In this document: positions 2,316-3,307 of the stretch, in pieces
Layout of the letters: each line of letters starts with the position of its first letter
Numbering within the stretch: the stretch's first letter is position 1
Origin: a bacterium
GTDB lineage: Bacteria > UBA9089 > CG2-30-40-21 > SBAY01
Assembly: GCA_040757115.1 (NCBI GenBank)
Contig: JBFLYA010000144.1
Location: forward strand, 1 to 9,558
DNA length: 9,558 nucleotides
Direction: 5' to 3'
Notes under the pieces: generated by a model
What the model saw: only the letters and a program-made list of their open reading frames with translations
Told to the model about the DNA's origin: nothing
Databases searched by the model: none
Program-made: the position numbers and the translations under genes

Positions 2316-2354
2316 TGCTCTGTCATACTTCAATTGATAGATAAAAGGTAATTG

Positions 2355-2374
2355 TTCACCGCAGAGACGCAGAG
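2355..2374 (+). repeat. CACCGCAGAG-type dispersed repeat, left copy
   Basis: TTCACCGCAGAGACG plus CAGAG at 2355-2374 matches, in inverted orientation, 3259-3278 at 18 of 20 positions. The pair brackets the broken GxxExxY gene. This motif is familiar to me from intergenic DNA of many environmental genomes. The rest of 2316-2626 is AT-rich, with a T-run at 2394-2402 and a small tandem duplication, and no convincing gene. Confidence 0.6.
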
Positions 2375-2547
2375 AAAGAGAGAGGAAAATATCTTTTTTT
2401 TTCGTGTTTTTCGGTGTTTAAAAAGGCTTAAAAACAATTACTCGAAAGTAAGTATTAAAAGATTAATAAACAACGAAAGACCCAAAATGCACAAAAAAAA
2501 GGAAATTTCTGTTTCTGGTGAATAGATTTTAATTTTTTGTAACCGTT

Positions 2548-2577
2548 CAGGGCTATACATTACAGGGCTATACATTA
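2548..2577 (+). repeat. Tandem duplication of a 15-bp unit
   Basis: CAGGGCTATACATTA occurs twice head to tail (2548-2562 and 2563-2577) without mismatch. It follows GTAACCGTT (2539-2547), which recurs inverted at 3278-3286. Perfect identity suggests a recent duplication. Confidence 0.75.
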
Positions 2578-2934
2578 GAAGTGTAAACAAGGAGAAATGG
2601 GGAAAAGGGAGAATTAGAGAAATGGCTCAAACTTTTTCTTGCTCCACCCTTCGAACATCAATCTTGGAGTCTGCGAAATTTACCAGTAACCCTATTTCTT
2701 TATCCACTGCTCTAAGGTATGCTCTAACCTGATTATAATACTTCCCACTTATCTCCTCAACAGTTTTAATCTCTACCACAATCTCATCTTCAACAAAAAG
2801 ATCAAGTCTATCAATCCCAACCTCAACACCTTGATAGAATATCTTGACTTCTTTTTCTGATTCAAAGATGATGTTCTGTCTTGCAAACTCAACCTTCAAG
2901 GCATTGTGATAGATGCTCTCCAGAAAACCAGGTC

Positions 2935-2938
2935 CTAA
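2935..2938. repeat. Target-site duplication CTAA, copy 1
   Basis: CTAA immediately outside the TGTCGT end of the element. In the disrupted gene (minus strand) it reads TTAG, the Leu codon plus the first base of the next Gly codon. Confidence 0.75.
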
Positions 2939-3127
2939 TGTCGTGTTGAACAAATAACGCACGGAATTCGATTCTGGTAACTGGTGATTGGTAACTGGTA
3001 ATTAAATACCGTTCGGCTGAGCTCAGGACGAAACTATTTAACCAATTACCAATTACCAGTTACCAATTATCCGTTTGCAGGTTACGAAACCTGATGATGC
3101 CCCGTGCAAAACTTACTCAATACGACA
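2939..3127. mobile_element. MITE-like element, 189 bp, with terminal inverted repeats and 4-bp target duplication
   Basis: The ends are TGTCGTGTTGAAC...GCACGG (2939-2964) and its inverted partner TGTCGTATTGAG...GCACGG (3127-3102), with 19 of 26 positions identical. CTAA flanks both sides (2935-2938 and 3128-3131), a target duplication fitting the YTAR pattern known for IS5-subgroup insertions. The interior has no coding capacity. It holds a large inverted module of GGTAACTGGT/ACCAGTTACC units around a central CTGAGCTCAG palindrome, plus a small hairpin, CAGGTT-acga-AACCTG (3078-3093). It was presumably mobilised in trans by a transposase not in this window. The family link rests only on target-site pattern. 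Confidence 0.8.
2976..3070. repeat. Inner inverted module of GGTAACTGGT units with central CTGAGCTCAG palindrome
   Basis: The left arm (2976-3003) repeats GGTAACTGGT twice around GATT. The right arm (about 3040-3070) is its imperfect reverse complement, with ATTACCA units and CCAGTTACC. The loop centre TTCGGCTGAGCTCAGGACGA (near 3013-3033) contains the perfect 10-bp palindrome CTGAGCTCAG. It forms a compact cruciform or RNA hairpin and may be an older independent repeat that was captured by, or inserted into, the outer element. Confidence 0.65.
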
Positions 3128-3131
3128 CTAA
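3128..3131. repeat. Target-site duplication CTAA, copy 2
   Basis: CTAA directly follows the ACGACA end of the element, matching 2935-2938. Collapsing the two copies restores the reading frame of the interrupted gene. Confidence 0.75.
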
Positions 3132-3258
3132 CTTTTGATGGACATTAATACAGGCATTAATAATCCTATCAGTTAACTCTTTTTCTCCATTTCTCCATCT
3201 TCTCTCCCTTTCTCCTTATTTTTATCCTACCTGAACTCTTACAATTTTTTCTGTGCAT

Positions 3259-3286
3259 CTCTGTGTCTTTGCGGTGAAACGGTTAC
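3259..3286 (-). repeat. CACCGCAGAG-type dispersed repeat, right copy, fused to GTAACCGTT
   Basis: On the minus strand this reads GTAACCGTTTCACCGCAAAG and onward. The second part matches 2355-2374 (18 of 20) and GTAACCGTT matches 2539-2547 (9 of 9), both inverted relative to those copies. Apart from the broken gene's 5' end, the inserted element and these repeats, nothing else is visible in 2963-3307. Confidence 0.6.
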
Positions 3287-3307
3287 GAAGGTTTAATCTC
3301 TCACTAA

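Follow-up and report, generated by a model that had tools for sequence, protein, structure and literature searches.

A gene of the GxxExxY family lies split in the window (the whole stretch of 9,558 nucleotides analysed, contig 144 of a source genome, G000, of 4.3 Mb in 462 contigs). This locus raises two questions: what interrupted the gene, and what such genes do in the repeated DNA that surrounds them. To our knowledge, no role has been described for GxxExxY proteins, which occur widely in bacteria and archaea of the environment and of which a genome often has several copies.

A split gene within nested elements

The cassette that carries the GxxExxY gene was found inserted into an outer gene-less element, which results in three nested levels. 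The features are as follows.

2348..3286, no strand: outer element without a gene, with CRCNRAG arms and GTAA ends, GTAATTGTTCACCGCAGAGACGCAGAG ... CTCTGTGTCTTTGCGGTGAAACGGTTAC
2531..2538, no strand: left 8-bp target duplication of the cassette, AATTTTTT, perfect
2539..3242, minus strand: GxxExxY cassette with IS66-like ends, GTAAGAGTTCAGG / GTAACCGTTCAGG
2590..2625: arm downstream of the gene, in inverted orientation to the upstream one; GGAGAA-like units at intervals of 8-9 nt
2627..2938, minus strand: 3′ part of the GxxExxY gene (PF13366, E 3.7e-30; TIGR04256, 108.6 bits; alignment)
2935..2938, no strand: left CTAA target duplication of the MITE
2939..3127, no strand: MITE of 189 bp with apparently IS630-type ends (terminal repeats, copy number, flanks, DNA fold)
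2939-2964 and 3102-3127: 26-bp terminal inverted repeats of the MITE, 19/26 identical
3128..3131, no strand: right CTAA target duplication of the MITE
3128..3198, minus strand: 5′ part of the GxxExxY gene, which begins with the native ATG at 3198 and encodes the first helix
3178..3220: arm upstream of the gene, which overlaps its start and ribosome-binding site; GGAGAA units at intervals of 8-9 nt
3243..3250, no strand: right 8-bp target duplication of the cassette, AATTTTTT, perfect

The original prediction had assigned the gene to the GxxExxY family, and both profiles agreed, with scores above their curated cut-offs (TIGR04256, 108.6 vs. 35 bits; PF13366, 105.1 vs. 22 bits). The invariant residues (GxxExxY, D, ExK, Q) were all within the 3′ part. 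The prediction had also read correctly from the sequence the 189-bp element with its terminal repeats and CTAA on either side, the frame shift caused by an inserted length of 193 bp, the in-frame TGA, and the open reading frame (ORF) of 111 amino acids (2627-2962) that begins inside the MITE end, at a GTG. The window is a clean case in which annotation would take such a truncated, GTG-started ORF for an intact gene.

The claim that excision restores the frame exactly held only in part. The joined protein has the consensus junction, but the window copy, unlike about 20 others, has lost 2 bp between the MITE and the native ATG, which leaves the 5′ part of its gene out of frame. Because of this extra deletion, excision of the MITE alone would not restore the ORF from the native ATG: that frame would run for 9 codons before a stop, and no ATG, GTG or TTG lies upstream in the rejoined one. 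Empty sites that lack the MITE, with about 98% DNA identity, were found on contigs C16, C7 and C154 of the source genome and on C148 of a genome of the same genus (G001). The gene on C16 has an intact ORF of 131 amino acids.

The predicted structure of the protein was a confident PD-(D/E)XK model (pLDDT 95.5), in which the invariant D64, E74 and K76 are the D...ExK residues of this nuclease fold. It resembled Cas4 SSO0001 (Z 9.4) and archaeal Holliday junction resolvases (Z 6-7). Resolvases and homing endonucleases were among the weak fold matches, which do not decide the function. The defence library gave weak Cas4 similarity only, and the protein had no match in PHROGs or, by sequence, in the PDB. 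The model points to a PD-(D/E)XK DNA nuclease. The structural core in common with Cas4 begins at model residue 19, which is the insertion point, with helix 1 outside. The MITE made the window copy a pseudogene, whose 3′ part, judged by this model, would still encode the catalytic core without helix 1. There were too few changes to measure selection on the 3′ fragment; substitutions among window-type copies looked near neutral.

Multiplication of the MITE and of the interrupted cassette

The element at 2939-3127 gave 85 BLAST matches in the source genome, about 22 of them near-complete, and its end pattern occurred 32 + 32 times there vs. 0 for the reversed control. The 4-bp flanks were the same on either side in 11 of the 22 near-complete copies. 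Their central TA was nearly constant, and most of them read CTAA, CTAG, CTAT or TTAG (NTAN). Multi-copy, short, bounded by terminal inverted repeats and lacking a transposase, the element is a MITE. Folded as single-stranded DNA, it forms a strong hairpin (z = -7.5) in its inner part. The exact MITE end had no match in contigs of other species, and relatives beyond the genus had short pieces only, mostly of the inner GGTAACT/GGTAATT repeat. At 2975-3065 this repeat forms a hairpin around a REP-like CTGAGCTCAG centre, and by itself it matches other genomes of the phylum. On contigs C234, C242 and C249, a further element of about 160 bp with GTAAT...ATTAC ends, gene-less CGCAAAG arms and an 8-bp duplication (CTCAGCCG) lies inside the MITE centre (locus L030, about 1562-1719; L029, about 1344-1500; L025, about 1618-1774).

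Two observations had been named as evidence against an insertion: a lack of other copies with the same ends in the genome, and the same internal sequence in intact relatives. Many further copies were found, and intact GxxExxY relatives lacked the internal sequence.

On contig C265 of the source genome, an IS630-type transposase gene (DDE_3, E 3e-20), itself split by another transposase gene, was located between ends that match those of the MITE (TGTCGTGTTGAGCAAATTTCGCA), with CTAG at either side. This arrangement suggests that the MITE has IS630-type ends.

The GxxExxY cassette is also a repeated unit. It starts with GTAAGRGTTCAGG and finishes with CCTGAACGGTTAC, is about 500 bp long with 13-bp GTAA... 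ends, has GxxExxY as its sole gene, and occurs dozens of times, as copies and as deletion derivatives. Its DNA had 34 matches in the source genome and 44 in G001. Nine copies had perfect 8-bp duplications, including AATTTTTT in the window; those elsewhere were GTGTATAA (around the uninterrupted 496-bp cassette on C16), GATAGGTG, GACTTTTC, TGATTACG, ATTAAATC, AAAAATTA, ATAAAAAA and AAATTCAG. A 15-bp tandem duplication at about 2549-2578 in the window, close to the end of the cassette, also occurs in the copy on C7. Duplications of 8 bp are made by IS66 elements (PMC3281130). An IS66 transposase remnant with two stops was bracketed by cassette-type ends (GTAACCGTTCAGG) on C277 of the source genome; no matching duplication was seen around this remnant. 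The assignments of the cassette ends to IS66 and of the MITE ends to IS630 are both putative, each based on short repeats and a broken partner element.

The original prediction took the gene to be broken by an inverted-repeat element at this locus. The insertion and its target duplication were confirmed, but the gene is part of a multi-copy mobile cassette, and the place of the event had to be revised. The MITE was in one orientation and at the identical junction in six loci of two species (C144, the window, C56, C234 and C242 in the source genome; C133 and C19 in G001), because a cassette that was already interrupted had multiplied. The hit thus occurred in an ancestral cassette. Across both genomes, about ten further cassettes had the MITE reversed at the same TTAG; in most of these, the rest of the gene was deleted up to CCAGGATTGATG, and the one on C255 had its own perfect 8-bp duplication. 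A reversed MITE at this site (C41 and others) implies either that insertion happened twice or that the element was inverted; about 12 suitable sites are present in the cassette. In locus L018 (C41 of the source genome), the cassette with the reversed MITE carries another insert, with CGACCTGTGCGGTTA ends and the duplication GATCTTTT. Interrupted cassettes kept multiplying, and their movement therefore needs no intact protein of their own but can take place in trans.

The end GTAASSGTTCAGG / GTAASSGTTCAGGYWR had 517 matches in the source genome vs. 5 for the reversed control. Several matches to the GTAASSGTTCAGGYWR end were close to the start of a contig (about 250 bp or less), and repeats of this end probably break the assembly. 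Because synteny with the genome of the same genus breaks at 3307, just past the exchanger gene, the latter offers no clean empty locus for the window as a whole; the LysM gene at 1593-2315 had no match in that genome.

Repeat arms and protein subtypes

Nearly every GxxExxY gene in the source genome was flanked by inverted arms of short units. The same arrangement was usual among 132 GxxExxY loci from about 20 phyla, including archaea: the arms lay within tens of nucleotides of the gene ends, and the modal arm had three units with a spacing of 8-10 nt. An inverted-arm score of at least 30 was obtained for 96 of 128 GxxExxY loci vs. 8 of 133 other ORFs (p ≈ 7e-30). At least four CRCNRAG units were present in 97.5% of 80 flanks vs. 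8.6% of 479 background windows. A set of 80 loci was picked by the peptide GPG[LM]LE[SN][AV]Y and represents one subtype; other subtypes came from the remaining loci. In one genome of the same phylum (G008), GxxExxY had 21 matches, mostly short N-terminal fragments.

The units were of several kinds (CRCNRAG, CRCNRAT, ACAGGAT and GGAGAA-like), and the kind went with the protein subtype. All 94 GPGLLE proteins were classed as CRCNRAG, the GxGFLE proteins as CRCNRAT (22), ACAGGAT (3) or CRCNRAG (1), and all four window-type proteins had GGAGAA-like arms; the arm classes were defined after some loci had been seen, so that these counts serve as a description and not as a blind test. On the tree, the arm type changed 12 times vs. 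35 times with shuffled labels. When a genome had a GPGLLE gene and another subtype, both with classable arms, the arm types differed in 19 of 20 cases. We found no report of the arm motifs or of their link to GxxExxY in the literature searched, mostly outside subscription journals, where two papers mention the name GxxExxY, each a single time. The link between arm sequence and nuclease type is apparently unreported.

Even among proteins less than 45% identical, the units can still be recognised; from this we infer that they are the target of the protein, which is most likely a DNA nuclease. The main alternative is common descent: gene and arms would be inherited as one linked unit, and their correspondence would not reflect recognition. 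Directly outside the arms, 66 loci of other taxa showed no excess of target duplications over mismatched pairs; this speaks against a simple transposon, and the arms cannot be taken as element ends in general.

The arms might act instead as RNA or autoregulatory binding sites, in which case the transcript could form a long hairpin, to be bound or cut by the protein. Their inverted arrangement, tens of nucleotides from the gene ends, would suit this reading, as would the overlap of the upstream arm with the ribosome-binding site and start in the window cassette. We consider it unlikely: there was no Rfam match at the gathering score for the window and 15 loci, gene-less armed elements exist, and the fold is nearest to DNA nucleases such as Cas4.

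We give somewhat less credence still to an ordinary MITE in an ordinary accessory gene, with the cassette carried by IS66-type ends through chance and the arms being common intergenic repeats. The genome is indeed saturated with repeats, as the matches to the GTAASSGTTCAGG end indicate, and gene-less arms and armed pairs are frequent in it. This reading does not account for arms that flank GxxExxY genes in about 20 phyla, far above other ORFs and background, or for a unit type that follows the protein subtype within one and the same genome.

Homing of the MITE to one GxxExxY site, as by an intron or IVS, was rejected as very improbable: although the same TTAG is occupied in many cassettes and in both orientations, most MITE copies sit at unrelated NTAN sites, the interrupted cassettes are near-identical and relocated, some with their own 8-bp duplications, and other GxxExxY types are not hit at that site.

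Proposed explanation and comparison with known systems

We favour, as the probable explanation of the locus as a whole, nested mobile DNA together with a nuclease that recognises its own arms. A non-autonomous, apparently IS630-type MITE entered a TTAG/CTAA site in the codons ...KL|GPG of the GxxExxY gene. A transposase of the IS66 family may move the cassette in trans. The GxxExxY nuclease would recognise its own arm units and cut at or near the inverted arms, and such cutting could help armed elements to spread or to be retained, whether they are its own or carry no gene. More tentatively, and with somewhat more doubt than belief, we suggest that GxxExxY and its arms may form a widespread and unreported two-part system, in which a small PD-(D/E)XK nuclease recognises a subtype-specific 7-nt unit, present about three times in each inverted arm, and thus spreads or maintains armed elements with or without the gene. 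The arms give GxxExxY proteins a concrete candidate substrate. They would also account for a class of short repeats, such as CACAGAG and CGCAGAG, that are very common in these genomes.

The MITE insertion in the GxxExxY gene belongs to a kind already known, and the interest lies in the repeat-armed cassette with its predicted nuclease. Like MITEs of the IS630 family, this MITE has inverted repeats in common with an IS630-type (DDE_3) element, a TA-centred target, many short copies and a palindromic interior. The duplication of the IS630 family is usually given as 2-bp TA, whereas here it reads as 4-bp NTAN. The cassette is similar to non-autonomous elements of the IS66 family and to mobile insertion cassettes in its GTAA-type ends, its 8-bp duplication and a passenger without transposase; it differs from them in that the passenger is a predicted GxxExxY nuclease with its own repeat arms.

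Within the GxxExxY family (TIGR04256; PDDEXK_3, PF13366), the window gene is a clear member with all invariant residues, and nothing that we found on this family reported the repeat arms. Cas4 (SSO0001) and the archaeal Holliday junction resolvases have the same catalytic-core fold with weak sequence similarity, and the likeness to Cas4 implies no CRISPR context for GxxExxY. The comparison with REP sequences and their RAYT (TnpA-REP) proteins concerns the whole arrangement: in both, a nuclease gene, here a predicted one, lies between inverted arms, gene-less pairs occur, and the unit type is matched to the protein. Unlike RAYT, which is defined by the HUH Y1 transposase, the GxxExxY protein belongs to PF13366 and is a PD-(D/E)XK protein by its model, and unlike REP hairpins, its arms consist of about three 7-nt units placed every 8-10 nt.
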